A stretch of DNA of 29,596 nucleotides from a virus: positions 1-29,596 of IMG/VR virus record IMGVR_UViG_3300034524_000026, one strand, 5' to 3'. This document shows, piece after piece, positions 4,040 through 29,336 of the stretch. The stretch's first letter is position 1, and every line of letters starts with the position of its first letter. Below the pieces are notes generated by a model. The model did no database searches, was not told where the DNA came from, and saw nothing but the letters and a program-made list of their open reading frames with translations. A program made the translations under genes and the position numbers.

Positions 4040-7000
4040 CTATCCAAATTTAATCCCCAGCCTTTTTGCTACTGTTGCAAAATCTTCAATTGTGGCTCTT
4101 GCTAATTCACGTCCATTGATTTCAAGTACAATCACTTTTTCATCATTTCTACTACTCTGTACAATTGCTTCTGATAATGCTGTTCCAATTGCATTATATA
4201 CAGCATCATATATAGCCCTAACAAATGGACTTGATGTGCTTAATGGTATAACTGCTTCTGGCCCGGCTTCGCCAATTAGTGCAGGTGTAGGCTTTGTAAC
4301 AACTCCTCCAGCAGCCATAGGGAGAAGAGAAATGTATGGTATGTTAAATCCCCATGATTTCCCGCCTAATACAGGTACCCAACTTGGTATGCTAAAATGT
4401 ATTCTGTTTAATTGCCCAATCATCCAATTCAAAGCTTTTAAAATACTGTTTACTACGCTTTTTATTGAATACAGTAACCCATTAAAAGCTTGACTACCTA
4501 CGTTTTGAATACTAGAGAACACCTGCAATAACCTATTTTTAATTGATTCAAAGATATTTATCAAAGTTGTCTGAAGACCTGTTGTTATGTTAACTAAAGT
4601 ATTTCTTAAACCAGAAAAAGCAGAAGCACCAAAGTTTTTAATAGCAGTCCAATTATTAATGACGTAATTCTTGATTGCTCCCCATATCTGCATTGTAAAC
4701 TCCTTTGTTATCGTCCATTGATTAATAATAAAATCCTTAGTAGTGCTCCATACAGAAGAAGCAAAATCTTTTATAGATGTCCAGTTATTAATTAAGAAAG
4801 TTTTAATGTCATTCCATAATTGTGAACTAAACTGCTTTGTTAATGTCCACTGATTTCTTATAAAATCGTTAACCGCTGTCCAAATATTAAATCCGAAGTC
4901 TTTAATTAAATTCCACTGGTTGAAAAGAAAATCTTTTATCGCTCCCCATACACTTATAACAAAAGTTCTTAAATCAATTTTGCCTTTGATTAAATCGCTT
5001 ATATTTGTCCATATATTCCCTGCAAATGTTTTTATGTTTTGCCATGTGCCAATGACAAAGTCAGATATACTCTTCCATATGTTTATCGTAAATTGTTTTA
5101 TATTCTGCCATGTTCCTGAGACAAAATTGTATATATTCAAGAAAATATTTTTTGCAAATTGTAATAGATTACTCCATAAATTTACTACAAAATCTACAGT
5201 TGCCTTAGTCGTTTCAACTGAAAATGTAAAAATGTTTCTGAAAGTACCTACTACAAAATCTTTTAGAGCTTTCAATATATCAACAGTTAAAGTTTTCGCA
5301 TTCCCCCATATCGTGCCTATTAACTGCCCTACAGGCGCTAGATATGGTCCTACATTCGTTCTTAACCAATCCCAAGTATTCCCCACTTTTTCTTTAATCC
5401 AATCCCATACAGTACCTGTTTTCTCTTTAATCCAATCCCATGTGGTACCTGTTTTTTGTTTAATCCAATCCCATGCATTCGCAAAACCTTGCTTAATCCA
5501 GTCCCAAAAGCCAGCAAGTGTAGGCTTTACTTGTTCTATTGCGCTTAAATCAATGCCAGGCATTTTTGCTAAATCGCCTAAATTCCCTAAACCACCAATT
5601 TCACCTAATTCCGGCATTTGTGGTTCAGTGCTGCTTATATCTTCCATAACAGAATGTATTTCGTCAAATGACTGTAGGTTATCATGTGCCGCTTTGCTTG
5701 CCTTTTTAGTCTTATCTGACAAATCCCCCATATTATCTGCGGCTGTTTTTGTATATTCAGCGCTATCAGCAAACTGTTTATTCTGTGCTTCCATTACTTT
5801 TTCTAAATTTGCTTTTTCTACACTTGATACATATTTCATCCATAAACCTATTCCTGCGGTAAGTGCTGCTGATACTCCTATTATAGCCCAACCCAATGGC
5901 CCTAACGCCGCCCATACCGAATATAACGCTGTTCGTATTGTCTGTAATACTCCAACGTGAGTTATCCCCGCCATAGATGCAAGATGTAGCTGAAGGCGGT
6001 ATATTTGTACTGCCCTTGCAACGAAATTAAGTATGCCGGATGTTGCGACTGCTTCCCCACGTAACACTGCCATTACAAAAGCAAGACCACTAACGGCTTT
6101 TTGAGCAAGTGTTATAATCAATGTTGCTAATTTAAACGATAAAAAGGCCGTCGCTGCTCCTAGCACTATCGGCCTTATTATCGCCCAGTTTCTTGCTATA
6201 CTCTGCGCTACTGCCCTTGCAGTGTTCCAAAAGCCTCGCAATATCGACGTTATTGTCGATATTACCCCAGCAAATTCAGCACCAAACATTTTAGTCAAGG
6301 CTGCATTCAAGCCAAACTGACGGAAGGTGTTATAAAACTCCGTTGCCCATTCCCTTACTCCTTGCAGCCAGCGAACTAATCCTTTGAACAAATTAGAAGT
6401 CAACGCCCCTATTGTCATTCGCCAAACATCTCGAATAGTTGAAGTTACGCCTTCCCATGTGTTCTCCATATTCTGCATCATATTCGGAAAGCGTTTCTCC
6501 ATGCCTTCAACTAGTATCTGTATAGCTTGATTCGCCGGGATAAGACCTTTTTCGGAAAGTTTCATGACCTCGGCGGTGGATTTGCCCATCGCCTCGGCCA
6601 GTATCTCCCAGGCCGGTATCCCTGCCTCGGTCAACTGGCGCATCTCCTCGCCGCTCACCTTCGATTTCGCCCTCATCTGGCCCAGGGCAAGAGTAATCCG
6701 GTCAATACCTTCTTTGCCCAGGCCTAAGCCCGCAGCGGCATCGCCGACAGCTCGCAAAGTTGGCAAGACCTCTTCGGCAGCAAAGCCCATGGCCATCATG
6801 CGCTTGGCCGCATCCAGCAGTTCGGGGTACTCAAACGGTGTCCTAGCGGCAAAAGCAGCCATTTCGTCCAAGAAAGCCTGAGCCTTCTCCGCGCTACCTA
6901 GCATAGTAGTAAAGCCAATCTGAGCCTGCTCCATCATGGCATTGAAGTTTACTGCTTCACCTACTACGGTCTGAAAGCCTCGGCGTATAGCTTCGAATAA

Positions 7001-7150
7001 ACCCATGCCCAGAGTAAAGGAGAGCGCATTTTTAAATATATCGCCAATCCTAAGCCCAGCAGCCTTGGCCTGCTTTTCAGCTTGAGCCAAGTCTTTATTA
7101 AACTGGGAAAAGTCAGCACCAAGCCTTACTATCAATTCTCCTATAGTCAT
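4040..7150 (-). CDS. Tail tape measure protein
   Basis: A 1036-residue protein that sets tail length and passes through the tube during DNA ejection. The N-terminal ~240 residues match the conserved tape-measure start domain (ANFSQF-like opening, then GFTTMLGSAEKAQAFLDEM and the GLGLGKEGIDRITLALGQM region). A hydrophobic middle (about 325-445) contains possible transmembrane stretches. Residues ~545-840 have tryptophans at a constant 11-residue phase. Near the C-terminus is the family hallmark AAGGVVTKPTPALIGEAGPEAVIPLS in two parts. A RBS (AAAGGTGGTGA) precedes ATG 7150. The first ~600 bases of the gene are markedly GC-richer than the rest, which suggests the N-terminal part was acquired separately. 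Confidence 0.93.
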   Translation of the reverse strand: MTIGELIVRLGADFSQFNKDLAQAEKQAKAAGLRIGDIFKNALSFTLGMGLFEAIRRGFQTVVGEAVNFNAMMEQAQIGFTTMLGSAEKAQAFLDEMAAFAARTPFEYPELLDAAKRMMAMGFAAEEVLPTLRAVGDAAAGLGLGKEGIDRITLALGQMRAKSKVSGEEMRQLTEAGIPAWEILAEAMGKSTAEVMKLSEKGLIPANQAIQILVEGMEKRFPNMMQNMENTWEGVTSTIRDVWRMTIGALTSNLFKGLVRWLQGVREWATEFYNTFRQFGLNAALTKMFGAEFAGVISTITSILRGFWNTARAVAQSIARNWAIIRPIVLGAATAFLSFKLATLIITLAQKAVSGLAFVMAVLRGEAVATSGILNFVARAVQIYRLQLHLASMAGITHVGVLQTIRTALYSVWAALGPLGWAIIGVSAALTAGIGLWMKYVSSVEKANLEKVMEAQNKQFADSAEYTKTAADNMGDLSDKTKKASKAAHDNLQSFDEIHSVMEDISSTEPQMPELGEIGGLGNLGDLAKMPGIDLSAIEQVKPTLAGFWDWIKQGFANAWDWIKQKTGTTWDWIKEKTGTVWDWIKEKVGNTWDWLRTNVGPYLAPVGQLIGTIWGNAKTLTVDILKALKDFVVGTFRNIFTFSVETTKATVDFVVNLWSNLLQFAKNIFLNIYNFVSGTWQNIKQFTINIWKSISDFVIGTWQNIKTFAGNIWTNISDLIKGKIDLRTFVISVWGAIKDFLFNQWNLIKDFGFNIWTAVNDFIRNQWTLTKQFSSQLWNDIKTFLINNWTSIKDFASSVWSTTKDFIINQWTITKEFTMQIWGAIKNYVINNWTAIKNFGASAFSGLRNTLVNITTGLQTTLINIFESIKNRLLQVFSSIQNVGSQAFNGLLYSIKSVVNSILKALNWMIGQLNRIHFSIPSWVPVLGGKSWGFNIPYISLLPMAAGGVVTKPTPALIGEAGPEAVIPLSTSSPFVRAIYDAVYNAIGTALSEAIVQSSRNDEKVIVLEINGRELARATIEDFATVAKRLGIKFG
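4631..5512 (-). repeat. 11-residue tryptophan repeat array inside the tape measure gene
   Basis: Two visible layers share one phase. At 5368-5510 a 33-bp DNA repeat encodes (A/T)WDWIKxKTGT units; the copies at 5393, 5426 and 5459 are exactly 33 bases apart. At 4631-4950 a 22-residue unit (NQWxxIKDFxxxIWxxxKDFI) repeats about five times with tryptophans 11 residues apart. The units between (GTWQNIKQF, NIWKSISDF) keep the same spacing. This fits a long hendecad-type helix that acts as the ruler. Confidence 0.8.
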
Positions 7151-7186
7151 TTTTTCACCACCTTTTAAAAGAAAAAAGAAGGAATT

Positions 7187-7217
7187 TTGATGATTTTGTA
7201 GAAATTATTAGTATACA
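7187..7217 (+). promoter_or_regulatory. Possible promoter of the moron unit
   Basis: TTGATG at 7187-7192 could act as a -35 element, with TAGTAT at 7209-7214 (16-base spacer) or TATACA at 7212-7217 as -10. It lies in the only non-coding stretch before the + strand lipoprotein gene. The match is moderate, and AT-rich DNA gives chance hits. Confidence 0.4.
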
Positions 7218-7238
7218 AAAACAGGGGAGGTATAAAAC

Positions 7239-7763
7239 ATGTTCCAAAAAAGTAAGATTGTTTTTTTAATCTCCACGCTGTTAGTACTTTTATTTTTGTT
7301 AGCAGGTTGTGGAGGCCCAAGTTCAACTACTAACACCAATTCAAGTAACACTCAAAAAGAACAAGTTAAAGAATTTTACCAAGTAGGAGAAACTGCTGCA
7401 ATTAATGGAACAGAAATAACAGTATTAAAAGTTGAAAAATCAAAAGGTACTGAATTTGATAAACCTAAAAGCGGTATGGAGTTCGTAATTGTTACTGTAA
7501 AGATAAAGAACACAGGTAAAGACAAACTATCCTACAATCCACTTTACTTTAAAATGCAAAATAGCAAAGGTCAAATAACCGACATAGCATTTTCAACTAT
7601 AAATCAAGATACCGCATTGCAATCGGGGGACCTTGCCCCTGGCGGCGAAGTAGAAGGAACCTTAATTTTTGAAGAACCAATCAATGATTCAGGTTTAATA
7701 CTACAATATCAGAATAATATATTTAGCAAGGAAGCAAAATTGCAATTTAAATTAAATCAATGA
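7239..7763 (+). CDS. Secreted lipoprotein, DUF4352-type (phage moron)
   Basis: A 174-residue protein with a lipoprotein signal: basic start (FQKSK), hydrophobic core (residues ~8-21), lipobox LLAGC with the lipidated cysteine about residue 24, then a Ser/Thr/Asn-rich linker. The remaining ~120 residues (YQVGETAAINGTEITVLKVE, GMEFVIVTVKIKNTGKD, DLAPGGEVEGTLIFEEP) match the Ig-like DUF4352 fold of surface lipoproteins. RBS GGGGAGG lies before the ATG. It is encoded against the late operon, between the tape measure and tail-chaperone genes, with its own promoter region and terminator, the usual form of a lysogenic-conversion gene. Surface display in the lysogen and a role in superinfection exclusion or host fitness are inferences. 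Confidence 0.88.
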   Translation: MFQKSKIVFLISTLLVLLFLLAGCGGPSSTTNTNSSNTQKEQVKEFYQVGETAAINGTEITVLKVEKSKGTEFDKPKSGMEFVIVTVKIKNTGKDKLSYNPLYFKMQNSKGQITDIAFSTINQDTALQSGDLAPGGEVEGTLIFEEPINDSGLILQYQNNIFSKEAKLQFKLNQ

Positions 7764-7782
7764 ACGTGAAAGGAGAATTTTT

Positions 7783-8127
7783 ATGAAAATAGCATCAGGT
7801 ATAATTTCTTTGTTATTTGCAGTTATCATATTTTTCCAGTCATCAGTCGCTTATCTAGGCGGTTCAGTCTTTGACGAAGAATCAACAGCACAAGGAGGAA
7901 GTGTAGGTATCTTAGTTGCTCTCATGTATATAATCGGAGGTGCATTTGCATTTAAATTGCCAAAAGTGGCTATGGTATTTTCTATTATAGCAGGGATTCT
8001 TGGCATCGCTGTTGGTACAACAACTCCATATAAGGACATGACTGTTTGGGGAGTTATCGCTCTAATTCTTGCTGTAATGGAATTCTTTGCAGGACGCAAA
8101 CCACAAAAAGTAGATAAACATGCTTAA
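7783..8127 (+). CDS. Small integral membrane protein (phage moron)
   Basis: A 114-residue protein with about four hydrophobic segments: residues ~4-26, 42-58, 62-80 and 85-102, ending in a basic tail (GRKPQKVDKHA). The fold resembles small four-helix membrane proteins of the DUF4064 kind; this is tentative. It starts 19 bases after the lipoprotein stop behind AAAGGAGAA, so the two form an operon. Its stop codon abuts the stop of the convergent tail-chaperone gene with no base between them. The function is unknown; it may act with the lipoprotein in the envelope of the lysogen. Confidence 0.8.
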   Translation: MKIASGIISLLFAVIIFFQSSVAYLGGSVFDEESTAQGGSVGILVALMYIIGGAFAFKLPKVAMVFSIIAGILGIAVGTTTPYKDMTVWGVIALILAVMEFFAGRKPQKVDKHA

Positions 8128-8466
8128 TCACCATGGGCCTTTTAGGCCCTTTTCTTTTGCCTCTTCAATTAATTCATCCCATTGCTTTCCTTCCTGTTGT
8201 TCTCCTGTTAGTTTTTTAAATCTCTTTTTCAATTCTTCTCCTAAAAAATCATCAGGCTCTACTGACTTAGGCTTCTTCTTGCTAAACATTCCTGCTATAG
8301 TAGCTATGGCATTTGTAATAACGGAAGCAATAAAAGCCCACTTATTACGCATTTCTGAATATTCCTGCAAAAATCTCTGTCTTTCTAATTCTTTTAAAAT
8401 CGCAATTAACTCAGAAGGTCGCAATTCCCTCATTTCATCTATTGTCCATCCAAATTCACGAGCCAA
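8128..8466 (-). CDS. Tail assembly chaperone, GT (frameshifted) part
   Basis: This frame encodes the downstream domain of a G-GT tail chaperone. The open frame extends upstream beyond the TTG at 8466 to at least 8538, adding RSQETIETNADIGSDWLN and AETIVLLAREFGWTIDEMR, a typical GT-domain start. The TTG has no usable ribosome binding site. The frame is -1 relative to the upstream gene, so I expect translation mainly as a fusion of about 227 residues. Residues after the GT core include a hydrophobic stretch (AFIASVITNAIATIAGMF) and a basic, acidic-tailed end. In lambda-like tails the T part recruits tail tube subunits to the tape measure. Normally the tape measure gene follows directly; here the moron unit lies between. 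Confidence 0.8.
   Translation of the reverse strand: MAREFGWTIDEMRELRPSELIAILKELERQRFLQEYSEMRNKWAFIASVITNAIATIAGMFSKKKPKSVEPDDFLGEELKKRFKKLTGEQQEGKQWDELIEEAKEKGLKGPW
8135..8158 (+). terminator. Intrinsic terminator of the moron operon
   Basis: GGGCCT (8135-8140), loop TTT, AGGCCC (8144-8149), then TTTTCTTTT. It lies 7 bases past the membrane-protein stop on the + strand. The same bases encode the last residues (GLKGPW) of the - strand tail-chaperone gene, so the terminator is embedded in coding DNA. Confidence 0.7.
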
Positions 8467-8471
8467 GAGAA

Positions 8472-8810
8472 CTATTGTTTCTGCATTAAGCCAGTCTGAG
8501 CCAATGTCAGCATTGGTTTCAATAGTTTCTTGAGACCTAAAAAATTTACGTCAATAAAGGCCTCCAACAAAGCTTCAATTTCGCTCATGTAGGCATTTTT
8601 TATATCATCTTTTGTAAGTTCAGGAAAGATTATCGGTAATTTTTTATAAAGCAAATCAAAATCTAAATCACTGAATTCTTTGAAATCAATATTGGCTATC
8701 TTGCCCTTGCTAGATGGAAAAAGTTCGGTAATTAGTTTTTCTAATTCCCCTATTCTCTTTTCCTCAACCCTAATTTCTTTTCCCGCAAAAGATACAACTT
8801 TATTGCGCAT
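8472..8810 (-). CDS. Tail assembly chaperone, G part
   Basis: A 112-residue, helix-rich soluble protein directly after the tail tube genes, the standard position of the G chaperone that coats the tape measure protein during tail assembly. AGAGGAGGG lies before ATG 8810, and the start overlaps the previous gene by 11 bases. Near the 3' end, codons 88-91 contain a run of A and T bases that forms canonical slippery heptamers. Ribosomes that slip there continue into the downstream frame, the others end at 8472. Confidence 0.82.
   Translation of the reverse strand: MRNKVVSFAGKEIRVEEKRIGELEKLITELFPSSKGKIANIDFKEFSDLDFDLLYKKLPIIFPELTKDDIKNAYMSEIEALLEAFIDVNFLGLKKLLKPMLTLAQTGLMQKQ
8538..8547 (-). other. 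Programmed -1 ribosomal frameshift site (G/GT)
   Basis: Read on the - strand in the frame of the G gene, the codons are GTA AAT TTT TTA. This gives two overlapping X XXY YYZ heptamers: A AAT TTT (8547-8541) and T TTT TTA (8544-8538). After slippage at the second, the next codon starts at 8538 and reads RSQETIET onward with no stop until 8130. Frame arithmetic agrees: G codons start at positions equal to 2 mod 3, the GT frame at 0 mod 3, a -1 change. Confidence 0.85.
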
Positions 8811-9244: not shown

Positions 9245-9673
9245 CTATACTGCTGTAGATGGTGCTGTAGCTAATCCTTCTACATTTGGCTTGCCACTAC
9301 CCTTAAAATCAAAAGAAATGCTAACTTTGTCGTCTACAGGAGTATCAATATTAGCACTTAATTTGGCTTTGCCACTGAATTTCACTGCGTTATTAACATG
9401 TAGTTCAATTTCAACTAAAGTTTTATTTAGTATTGCATTAATAATAGCTACCTGCCCACCGACATCGTCTGGATTAAAATTGCCTTCAAAACTACCATCC
9501 CATTCTCCTAAGCCATTGATAAATTCTTTCCACCCATTACTATCAAAATTTGTTACGTCTATTTCATCTACATTTATATTTAATGACCATTTCGCTATTT
9601 CTAATACTTTCGTTGATGTCGTCGCCCCTGCTGGTTTAACATAAACAGCACCGCCATAACCTACAATTGCCAA
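9245..9673 (-). CDS. Major tail (tube) protein
   Basis: About 142 residues. The motif pattern W-SLNINVDEIDVTNFDSNGWKEF followed by GLGEWDGSFEGNF and a C-terminal beta strand (KVSISFDFKGSG) is characteristic of siphophage tail tube subunits. It forms the stacked hexameric rings of the tail. The TTG at 9673 is chosen because AAGGAGG ends 9 bases upstream; the in-frame TTG at 9682 touches that element. The start lies next to the stop of the tail terminator gene, in normal head-tail gene order. Confidence 0.85.
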   Translation of the reverse strand: MAIVGYGGAVYVKPAGATTSTKVLEIAKWSLNINVDEIDVTNFDSNGWKEFINGLGEWDGSFEGNFNPDDVGGQVAIINAILNKTLVEIELHVNNAVKFSGKAKLSANIDTPVDDKVSISFDFKGSGKPNVEGLATAPSTAV

Positions 9674-9674
9674 T

Positions 9675-10055
9675 TTAACCAACCTCCTTAATCACTCTAA
9701 AATTTACAACAAAAATAGCCCTCCCGTTTTTATCTCGCTCAAGAAAGAAAGGGCTTTGCTTCGCCTGAATAAGTAAATATCTTACGTTGTTTATGACCTG
9801 TTCTGATACACCGTGTAAAACCCGTACTGTCTGCTCAATCTTTTGCCTGCCCGCAGGATAACTCTTGTTTCTGACTAAAACCTGCAAGCCCGGATATTCT
9901 AAGTTTGCATCTGTTAAATCCTGCGGTTCACCTGCGTATTCAAACAATGCGATACAATTATCCGGACTTACTGGCAGCTGCCCCTTGAATATGTCCGTGC
10001 CAACTACACCAACACCTTGCTGCTGCAGATACAAGGCAATATCATCTAGCAGCAC
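9675..10055 (-). CDS. Tail terminator / minor capsid protein (Minor_capsid_3-like)
   Basis: About 126 residues. LLDDIALYLQQQGVG, NCIALFEYAGEPQ, PGLQVLVRNKSYPAGRQK match the family annotated as phage minor capsid protein 3, which structurally corresponds to tail terminators that cap the tube. GTG 10055 is chosen because GGGGAGGG lies upstream and homologues start close to LLDDI; an ATG at 10085 inside the previous gene lacks a ribosome binding site. It lies between the HK97 gp10-like protein and the tail tube gene, as expected. Confidence 0.78.
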   Translation of the reverse strand: MLLDDIALYLQQQGVGVVGTDIFKGQLPVSPDNCIALFEYAGEPQDLTDANLEYPGLQVLVRNKSYPAGRQKIEQTVRVLHGVSEQVINNVRYLLIQAKQSPFFLERDKNGRAIFVVNFRVIKEVG

Positions 10056-26596: not shown

Positions 26597-26636
26597 AAGT
26601 TTAAGATTCATGAACTTATATATGGGGGTATCAAGA

Positions 26637-27014
26637 ATGGCTACTATAGGTGATAGGATAAAACAATTGCGTTTAGAAAATAACTTAACGCAAGAAGAGT
26701 TTGGAAAGATATTTGGTATAGTTAAGTCGACAGTTTCTATGTATGAAAGTAACAAAAGTACACCGGATGATGAACTGAAAAAGAAAATTGCAGAATACTT
26801 CAATGTATCTCTTGATTGGTTAATGGGAGTTTCCGACATACGCAACCCTGCTGACGAAATCACCGAAGCAGTAAAAGATGATCCAGATCTAAGAATAATT
26901 GAGAGAGCACGACAAAAAATGTCACCTAAAGATCGAGAAAGAATGATGAAAATTTTAAAAGCTTCATTTGAAGATTTCTTCAACGAAGATGAAGAAGAAG
27001 ATGAAAATGAATAG
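26637..27014 (+). CDS. CI-like phage repressor (XRE-family HTH)
   Basis: 125 residues from ATG 26637, chosen for GGGGG 8 bases upstream. Residues ~4-60 (RIKQLRLENNLTQEEFGKIF, GIVKSTVSMYESNKSTPDDE) form the helix-turn-helix, followed by FNVSLDWLMGVSD. No LexA-like peptidase domain is present; instead the C-terminus is acidic (FFNEDEEEDENE). Its gene overlaps the ImmA-like peptidase gene, as in ICEBs1 ImmR/ImmA and related phages, where the peptidase cuts the repressor at induction. Confidence 0.87.
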   Translation: MATIGDRIKQLRLENNLTQEEFGKIFGIVKSTVSMYESNKSTPDDELKKKIAEYFNVSLDWLMGVSDIRNPADEITEAVKDDPDLRIIERARQKMSPKDRERMMKILKASFEDFFNEDEEEDENE

Positions 27015-28083
27015 AATCAAATATAACTCTCCAAGGCTTGGTTATATAAAAAATATTGTTTCTGATCTATATATTAAATTTAAAATAGATTCTTACCCAA
27101 TTGATGTTAAAAAACTTTTCCGCAAAATTCCTAATGCTAGAATTGTTCCATTTAGTAAATTCATGAAAAAGTATAATATTTCTCTTTATGAGGTTTATAC
27201 GTATTTAAATACTGATGAAGGATGTACGATTTATGATCCTAAAACTAATAGGTATATCGTTTATTATAATGACATAAAGTTTAAGTTTATTTATATTAAA
27301 ACCCCCGAAAGACAAAGATGGACCTTGGCTCATGAACTAGGACATATACTATTAAAACATCATACTATTACAAACAAAACCAAAATTTTTAGAAATACCC
27401 TAACAGATAAAGAATATAATTGGATGGAGAGGGAGGCAAACTACTTTGCATCATTGTTGCTTGCTTACCCACTTATATTATACAAATTAAGGATAAAAAA
27501 CAGTACCGATATTGCAAGTATTTGTGGAATATCACAGGAAGCCGCTTCATACAGATTTGAGGATTATAAAAAATGGAGTTTAAATAAAAAGATAGATAAA
27601 AAAGATTTACTAATATTAGAATACTTCAATGATTTTTTATCAAAAAAGCATTGTCCTACATGTGGATATGATACTAAATTACTTGATTATGGTTATTGTC
27701 CTATATGTGGGGCAAAATTAGAAAGGGGAAGTGGTAATATGATATATAATGATGGATATGAACTTGATAAGAATGGCCGAGCTGTTATATGCCCTGTATG
27801 CGGGAATGAAGAGATAGGAGAAGATCCAGATGAACAATATTGTATCATCTGCGGTACGTATTTAGTAAATAAGTGTACTCATGACTATGATGAATTTAAT
27901 AATTTCACAGGTGAAATAATTAAACCTGCATGTGGAAAAATAGTCCCAGGTAATGCAAGATATTGTCCTTATTGTGGTTCAGAAACAACATTTTTTAGAA
28001 ATGGGCTATTACAGCCATGGCAAGAAGCTAAAGAAGAATTAGAGAAAATACCAACAGCCGATATAGATGATTTGCCTTTTTAG
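27001..28083 (+). CDS. ImmA/IrrE-type metallopeptidase with C-terminal zinc ribbons
   Basis: About 360 residues from ATG 27001 (alternatives ATG 26989, 27007), overlapping the repressor stop. Residues 1-200 are the ImmA/IrrE domain: WTLAHELGHILLKHH with HELGH at 111-115 and a distal EREANYFASLLL (143-154) that supplies the third zinc ligand. The C-terminal ~150 residues add zinc ribbons: CPTC (218-221)/CPIC (233-236), CPVC (264-267)/CIIC (281-284), and CPYC (322-325) with CGK upstream. It is expected to cleave the adjacent repressor to trigger induction; the ribbons may sense signals or bind nucleic acid. Confidence 0.85.
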   Translation: MKMNRIKYNSPRLGYIKNIVSDLYIKFKIDSYPIDVKKLFRKIPNARIVPFSKFMKKYNISLYEVYTYLNTDEGCTIYDPKTNRYIVYYNDIKFKFIYIKTPERQRWTLAHELGHILLKHHTITNKTKIFRNTLTDKEYNWMEREANYFASLLLAYPLILYKLRIKNSTDIASICGISQEAASYRFEDYKKWSLNKKIDKKDLLILEYFNDFLSKKHCPTCGYDTKLLDYGYCPICGAKLERGSGNMIYNDGYELDKNGRAVICPVCGNEEIGEDPDEQYCIICGTYLVNKCTHDYDEFNNFTGEIIKPACGKIVPGNARYCPYCGSETTFFRNGLLQPWQEAKEELEKIPTADIDDLPF

Positions 28084-28186: not shown

Positions 28187-28795
28187 ATGAACTATAAACT
28201 TGATGGTCTAAATCTTGTAGTAGTATTTTCTGATACTGGTAAACATGCAATAGAAATAAATGAATTAACAAATTTATTCACAAAAGAAGCTCCAGCTATA
28301 TTTTGGGATAATCAAATACCTACAAGTCCAGGGATAATTAGTTATCAAATCTCCGGTTTTGATATATCAATATTTGAAAATCGTTACCAAATACAATCCA
28401 AAGCAATTGATGGTGATATACCGTCTTACTTCCAAAAAACCCTTAAAAAAGCATTGTTAGCCGCGAAAACTAGATATGCAATAGCATATGGATTTAATTT
28501 TTACTTTTCATACAAAGAGAGTAGAGAGGTTAAAGATATATTTAATATAACCATAAGACCCACTTCATTTTCTTATCAGCCAGCAACTTTTTTAAAATTA
28601 ACTTTTAAAAAAGAAGACGCTTTATTCATTATAGAAGTTTCGGATGGTAAGCCAGCTTTAGGAGTACATATCAACATTCACCATGATGAAAATCTTGTGT
28701 TAGAAGTTCTTGCCGAAAAAATTGAAGAAAAGTTAAGTAATGATTTTGAAGCTACAAAACAACTACTCAGCGAGGTGTTTGGAATTGCTAAGTAA
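28187..28795 (+). CDS. Unknown protein of a lysogeny-expressed cassette
   Basis: A 202-residue soluble protein. Sections: a beta-rich first part (LDGLNLVVVFSDTGKHAIEI, IISYQISGFDISIFENRYQI), a middle helix (FQKTLKKALLAAKTRYAIAY), a second beta part (FSYQPATFLKLTFKKEDALF, IIEVSDGKPALGVHINIHH) and a C-terminal helix. I recognise no family and no catalytic motif. It has its own promoter and a strong ribosome binding site, and overlaps the next gene by 11 bases. Position beside the repressor suggests expression in the lysogen, e.g. superinfection exclusion; this is inference. Confidence 0.65.
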   Translation: MNYKLDGLNLVVVFSDTGKHAIEINELTNLFTKEAPAIFWDNQIPTSPGIISYQISGFDISIFENRYQIQSKAIDGDIPSYFQKTLKKALLAAKTRYAIAYGFNFYFSYKESREVKDIFNITIRPTSFSYQPATFLKLTFKKEDALFIIEVSDGKPALGVHINIHHDENLVLEVLAEKIEEKLSNDFEATKQLLSEVFGIAK

Positions 28796-29336
28796 GGGAA
28801 CTTATGAAGAAATTGAAGGATTTAAGAGTACTAATGTAGGAGAATTGCAAACTGGACATGATCTTAAAAAGAGATATGAAGAGAACAAAGTATTGGAAGA
28901 AATCATAAAAAAAATTGAAAAAAGATACCTTAAAATTGAACAAGAATACAAAAAAGTTTTTGGGGGAAAATTCTTTGAAGAAACTTATCAACAGCTTTCT
29001 TCATCAAAGGAGGTTATAAATATGGATTGGCAAGAAAAATATTTAGATAAATTAGATCAAAACATTACAGAAATGAAACAAAGTTTAAGAGATACAGAAA
29101 ATAGAATTGCACAAATGATAAATCAAACTTTATCAGAAATAAGAGATAGAGATAATCAAAGACATCAAGAGTTTCTTCATATAAATCAAAAGGTTGATTA
29201 TTTTACTAATTCTGTTGACAAAAAAATAGACGAGATTCGTAAGGAAATAAAAGAAGATAGAAAGTGGATTATAGGAATAGCAGTTACAACTATTTTAGGA
29301 GTTGCTGCAATGGTTATAACTGTTTTATTGAAATAA
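28785..29336 (+). CDS. Coiled-coil membrane protein, long form
   Basis: About 183 residues from TTG 28785 (GAGGTG upstream). The first ~79 residues (KGTYEEIEGFKSTNVGELQT, HDLKKRYEENKVLEEIIKKI) are helical and charged; the rest is identical to the XhlA-like protein that can start at 29022. No stop separates them, so a long form is possible, but a strong internal start also exists. It is coupled by overlap to the 28187 gene. Function unknown. Confidence 0.55.
   Translation: MLSKGTYEEIEGFKSTNVGELQTGHDLKKRYEENKVLEEIIKKIEKRYLKIEQEYKKVFGGKFFEETYQQLSSSKEVINMDWQEKYLDKLDQNITEMKQSLRDTENRIAQMINQTLSEIRDRDNQRHQEFLHINQKVDYFTNSVDKKIDEIRKEIKEDRKWIIGIAVTTILGVAAMVITVLLK
29022..29336 (+). CDS. XhlA-like single-span membrane protein, short form
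   Basis: 104 residues from ATG 29022, preceded by AAAGGAGGTTATAAAT, a near-perfect ribosome binding site. MDWQEKYLDKLDQNITEMKQ, then a coiled coil (RIAQMINQTLSEIRDRDNQR) and one C-terminal transmembrane helix (WIIGIAVTTILGVAAMVITV) match a widespread Firmicute phage family akin to XhlA. The N-terminal coiled coil is predicted on the cytoplasmic side. The usual location is lysis or lysogeny regions; the role is uncertain. Confidence 0.72.
   Translation: MDWQEKYLDKLDQNITEMKQSLRDTENRIAQMINQTLSEIRDRDNQRHQEFLHINQKVDYFTNSVDKKIDEIRKEIKEDRKWIIGIAVTTILGVAAMVITVLLK

Follow-up and report, generated by a model that had tools for sequence, protein, structure and literature searches.

An antisense cargo slot, probably served by host sigma-H, between the tail chaperone and tape measure genes of temperate siphophages

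The junction between the genes for the T part of the tail chaperone and the tape measure protein (TMP) is, judging from comparative sequence analysis, a dedicated exchange slot in temperate siphophages of spore-forming Bacillota. The core reading, a slot for swappable antisense cargo equipped with a host sigma-H promoter, appears probable. In the window, i.e. the whole stretch of DNA analysed here (29,596 bases, taken from an IMG/VR virus record), the slot holds a pair of genes that is best read as a prophage-expressed surface-protein cassette, putatively controlled by a starvation/sporulation sigma factor of the host.

A moron between the chaperone and TMP genes (HK97) and the use of host sigma-H by a prophage promoter (Staphylococcus aureus int) are already known; searches of openly licensed papers brought up neither an antisense cargo slot next to TMP nor prophage surface cargo driven by sigma-H. 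The slot provides a single address, across many unrelated-looking phage genomes, for collecting new envelope-acting genes, possibly exclusion factors. If prophage surface cargo is indeed under the control of host sigma-H, lysogenic conversion would be linked to the sporulation decision of the host, a link to which nothing closer than the S. aureus integrase promoter was found as a precedent, and a dormant virus could give its host new surface proteins as the cell prepares for dormancy.

The two-gene unit in the window

The late genes of the window (terminase, portal, capsid, tail tube, G, T and TMP) lie on the minus strand, and a two-gene unit with a terminator, placed after the G/GT chaperone genes and before the TMP gene, opposes this operon. 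The relevant features are the following.

4040-7150, minus strand: tape measure protein (TMP), 1036 aa; PF20155 (TMP_3) 1e-31, phrog_12798 6e-66
7178-7206, plus strand: sigma-H-type promoter; -35 box GAAGGAATT (7178-7186), 11-nt spacer (7187-7197), -10 box GTAGAAATT (7198-7206)
7226-7231, plus strand: Shine-Dalgarno (SD) site GGAGGT of the lipoprotein gene
7239-7763, plus strand: DUF4352 lipoprotein, 174 aa, lipobox L21-A-G-C24; PF11611 9e-32, PF16729 2e-7, phrog_806 1e-32
7783-8127, plus strand: small four-helix membrane protein (4TM), 114 aa, SD site AAGGAG; phrog_9418 3e-25
8128-8466, minus strand: T part of the tail chaperone, made via a -1 frameshift, C-terminus ...AKEKGLKGPW
8135-8149, plus strand: intrinsic terminator GGGCCTTTTAGGCCC+TTTTCTTTT, T tract to ~8158, -9.5 kcal/mol
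8472-8810, minus strand: G tail chaperone
8538-8544, minus strand: slippery heptamer T TTT TTA (GT -1 frameshift)
9245-9682, minus strand: tail tube
26610-27014, plus strand: HTH repressor-like protein, the HTH read by eye in the translation
26968-28083, plus strand: ImmA/IrrE-type metallopeptidase with zinc ribbons; PF06114 8e-12, phrog_87

The repressor-like and ImmA/IrrE-type genes run in the same direction as the cassette, which suggests a temperate phage whose cassette has the orientation of its lysogeny genes. The ImmA/IrrE gene is followed by two uncharacterised genes on the plus strand (28187-29336), the second of which encodes a C-terminal end made of a coiled coil and a TM helix and could be another prophage-expressed membrane protein.

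Both genes of the unit, originally called from the DNA letters, are real: the lipoprotein gene has an SD site, a lipobox and the PF11611 match, and the membrane protein gene has an SD site, the phrog_9418 match and predicted helices. The lipobox LAGC (Cys24) predicts that the lipoprotein is lipid-anchored, and its relative of solved structure is YjhA (3cfu). The 4TM protein has four helices in its predicted structure (pLDDT 82), for which a search against the PDB gave no match at E 0.001 or better; relatives of this protein occupy the same slot either alone or paired. Assignment of the 4TM protein to DUF4064 was rejected, since it has no hit in Pfam and does not match the DUF4064 protein of Brochothrix phage BL3.

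The stop codon of the 4TM gene abuts that of T, and the hairpin at 8135-8149, confirmed on the plus strand where a terminator had been expected, falls within the last part of the T coding sequence. It is not conserved in most relatives: only the window and, in a different form, L011 have such a T-embedded terminator hairpin. A dual-coded terminator, in which the T tail KGLKGPW encodes the hairpin as it does in the window, was rejected as a family trait, given that the hairpin is absent from most filled loci and the peptide is retained in several empty ones. The description of the unit as self-contained, moron-like and directed against the late operon stands, with G/GT, T and TMP all on the minus strand and with a putative promoter and terminator of its own (7178-7206 and 8135-8149), both recognised as sequence motifs.

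Cargo exchange at the T-TMP junction

The comparison set consisted of ~70 related loci; the scans with G found 17 and later 59 viral loci, along with 8 bacterial contigs that include Caldicoprobacter, Dethiobacter and Fermentithermobacillaceae. T and TMP are adjacent (gap <90 nt) in ~27 distinct loci, which represent empty slots; this bears out the assumption that GT and TMP normally adjoin and places the window unit, as befits a moron, between genes that are neighbours in relatives. Among the filled slots, 24 contain antisense cargo (20 found first, and L163, L164, L171 and L204 in later searches), and three loci have same-strand cargo at this junction. A same-strand slot with a sigma-A-like site is present in Caldicoprobacter. 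Antisense ORFs with a strong SD site are present at the T-TMP junction in 18 of 54 loci, compared with 1 of ~535 other late junctions (Fisher test ~1e-20, run with 19 instead of 18). Elsewhere among the late junctions, just one antisense gene is well supported (L065:10503-10937); it is located downstream of TMP.

The excess of antisense over same-strand cargo, along with the position of the promoter just beside the TMP ribosome-binding site, is what one would also see if the antisense transcript itself mattered, i.e. if sigma-H transcription silenced leaky late expression in starving lysogens by transcriptional interference. Such a role is very unlikely, considering that the cargo ORFs retain strong SD sites, signal peptides and reading frames, that the window terminator would halt the transcript at the T gene and that the slot is empty in many relatives.

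Loss of cargo can be traced in L069, a relative of L070 in which the 4TM gene is gone and a scrap of ~22 nt remains. Taken together, the empty, filled, swapped and remnant loci indicate that the slot gains, swaps and loses cargo. A 4TM cargo gene in L007/L008 (6568-7077) is apparently frameshifted after TVWG, and represents either a decayed slot occupant or a sequencing error. In an empty-slot relative (L015:1565-2476), T continues into the TMP frame without a stop (KGLHGPCVGEVVAKLGL), which could reflect either fusion of GT with TMP or a misassembly. Larger scans of host genomes for further slots added one new host (G447), and slots by TMPs of other chaperone families yielded two antisense secreted cargos (L230 and L240) that lack the sigma-H motif.

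The antisense cargo belongs to at least ten unrelated families, mostly envelope-directed (with TM helices, signal peptides or lipoboxes), including those listed here with the loci that carry them.

4TM protein: window, L007, L010, L027, L033, L070, L171
Copper-amine-oxidase-N plus DUF5067-like secreted proteins: L004, L011, L027
TM2 protein: L009, L066, L204
Shared ectodomain: L005 (lipobox-anchored) and L043 (anchored by two TM helices)
Gly-zipper protein of 115 aa: L006, L025
SHOCT proteins: L022, L023
Zn-ribbon plus Gly-zipper: L030, L046
2-TM ectodomain protein: L014

Further families exist beyond those listed. In three loci (the window, L027 and L066) the cargo is a pair, with the ectodomain protein first and a small membrane protein second. 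Membrane attachment is not clear for some of the cargo (SHOCT in L023, Zn-ribbon in L071); predicted envelope anchoring is common to nearly all slot cargos and fits action on incoming phages.

A sigma-H-type promoter ahead of the cargo

Sigma-H promoters have a spacer of 11 or 12 nt (N11/12). The window site matches 14 of the 15 positions of RNAGGAWWW-N11-RNNGAATWW, which joins the two consensus boxes RNAGGAWWW and RNNGAATWW (PMC8510167), the -10 box having GAAA in place of GAAT. Taken alone, this site is not significant, with 0.36 expected per window by chance. Across relatives, however, the site keeps its position and its spacing, and the motif with the fixed 11-nt spacing is found upstream of 16 of the 23 testable antisense cargos. 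The promoter that the original prediction placed ahead of the unit is thus apparently present but of the sigma-H type; the TTGATG at 7187, presumably the site meant there, is unremarkable and sits in the sigma-H spacer. A search of the window's divergent gap for sigma-A promoters gave no candidate scoring 9/12 or better, and nothing there exceeded the shuffles.

The pattern AGGnnnT-N14-GAA occurs in 14 of the 20 divergent gaps of the antisense cargos (shuffle mean 0.19, maximum 2), with no loci at T-to-GAA spacings of N9-13 and N16-19 and a single locus at N15. As this pattern had been framed with the data already in view, the consensus from the literature was put to a test of its own. At spacer 11, 9 of the 23 loci score at least 14 out of a maximum of 15, compared with at most one locus at each of the other spacers and none on the other strand; discrimination between spacers is seen only at cut-offs of >=13-14, and not at a loose one (>=11/15). 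The combined shuffle p for the literature consensus is 6e-15, a value that ignores relatedness; combined p values make the evidence look stronger than it is, given the lack of independence among related loci. Two slots found after the motif had been defined, L171 and L204, also carry it. The exact motif is missing from 7 of the 23 testable antisense slots, namely L006, where it has a 12-nt spacer, and six others with TATAAT-like sites (L014, L030, L043, L071, L163 and L164), so that the rule is best worded as an own promoter, most often of the sigma-H type.

An alternative is that the promoter is ordinary or phage-regulated and that the motif is shared by descent only. Some promoter regions are clearly homologous (window, L007, L010, L027 and L204; L005 and L011), which would agree with this explanation, as would the TATAAT-like sites, but where just the two boxes and their 11-nt spacing are shared, the rest of the region has diverged. 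The literature-consensus test and a calibration in host genomes further argue against common descent as the sole cause, leaving this alternative unlikely. The calibration relied on spoVS and spoVG, which are established sigma-H genes: among the hosts of relatives, spoVS has the motif upstream in 5 of 6 genomes, and spoVG in 2. Genome-wide, it is enriched over the reversed control in most of the 8 host genomes, and sigH is present in 9 of the 9 hosts of relatives examined. In the divergent gaps of L005 and L011, an inverted repeat GAGG...CCTC overlaps the sigma-H -35 box, and a similar one is found in L023; it is possibly a repressor operator.

Possible functions of the cassette

In a lysogen, with the late operon silent, host sigma-H RNA polymerase would transcribe the opposite strand of the slot from 7178-7206, and the antisense transcript would end at 8135-8149. 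Sigma-H being the transition-state/sporulation-onset factor, expression would be expected at the onset of stationary phase or sporulation. The products, a lipid-anchored Ig-like DUF4352 lipoprotein and a four-helix membrane protein that is presumably its partner, would be directed to the envelope, where the pair would most likely hinder the entry of other phages while the cell starves or begins to sporulate.

The closest precedent is gp15 of HK97, a superinfection-exclusion moron. Its gene, which codes for a small membrane protein, is likewise annotated between those of the frameshifted chaperone and the TMP (NC_002167) and has a putative terminator of its own, as in the window unit. The differences are that gp15 is a single gene of 62 codons on the late strand of an enteric phage, whereas the two genes of the window oppose the late strand and have a sigma-H-type promoter, and that the occupant of the window slot changes family between relatives. 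The original prediction invoked Ltp of phage TP-J34, a superinfection-exclusion lipoprotein, a parallel that holds insofar as both are prophage lipoproteins of Gram-positive hosts with their anchor on the outer side of the cytoplasmic membrane; however, DUF4352 is not the Ltp family, the only Pfam domains of the window lipoprotein being DUF4352/DUF5067 without the Ltp repeat domain, and gp15 is the nearer parallel. Ltp is encoded in the lysogeny module (PMC3952083). In phage BL3, a unit of repressor, DUF4064, DUF4352 and integrase genes resembles the window in that a small membrane-protein gene adjoins the DUF4352 gene (32% identity between the two DUF4352 proteins), but it is located in the lysogeny module and its membrane protein shows no recognisable relationship with the 4TM protein. 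In iLp84, too, the DUF4352 gene lies beside the repressor gene, in the lysogeny module.

The lipoprotein had also been proposed to form a matched pair with the TMP, such that an exclusion lipoprotein would be kept beside the TMP gene and an immunity allele would travel with the matching TMP allele. The same gene position of gp15 in HK97 is in line with this proposal, as are the escape from gp15 of HK97 hybrids with the HK022 tail tube and TMP genes and the TMP changes that overcome Ltp (PMC10883804). Nevertheless, shared cargo families do not predict the type of TMP N-terminus (permutation p 0.57), TMP C-terminus (p 0.40) or GT (p 0.42), and unrelated cargo is found beside nearly identical TMP N-termini (98% for L007/L014, 95% for L022/L025); the 4TM protein, for its part, also accompanies unrelated TMP N-termini (L033, ~20%). 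Matched alleles are accordingly quite unlikely, which does not count against exclusion as such, because an arms-race exclusion locus would also swap its cargo against a constant TMP.

Superinfection exclusion is our leading guess for the function, if a tentative one, ahead of a general role in host fitness; it draws on the shared junction with gp15, on the TMP changes that overcome Ltp and the tail tube and TMP hybrids that escape gp15, and on the presence of DUF4352 genes in lysogeny modules. No link of phage exclusion with either DUF4352 or the 4TM family was found. The possible host-fitness role would be lysogenic conversion without any anti-phage effect, with sigma-H-timed envelope proteins aiding the lysogen in starvation or sporulation. 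It is compatible with the sigma-H promoter, with the typical host envelope domains in the cargo (DUF4352, TM2, SHOCT, copper-amine-oxidase-N) and with distant 4TM relatives in 13 of 291 genomes of the class of one host, but the fast turnover of unrelated cargo beside tail genes is more typical of arms-race loci than of a steady benefit to the host, and domain searches of the cargo detected no sporulation-specific domain. More speculatively, the slot might be a developmentally timed superinfection-exclusion locus, in which a fast-swapping surface slot wired to the sporulation-onset sigma factor would change the exclusion surface as the cell commits to dormancy.

In S. aureus prophages, host sigma-H reads the int promoter (PMC2869324); that promoter drives the integrase, whereas the one in the window would serve genes for surface cargo nested among the late genes. 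Near-identical copies of AGGATTTTTG[GA]ATTTTTTGTCGAATA, several of them near contig ends, are present in seven contigs (C9, C11, C24, C25, C29, C39 and C41) of a Caldicoprobacter genome (G001), which suggests a repeated mobile element with a sigma-H promoter of its own.
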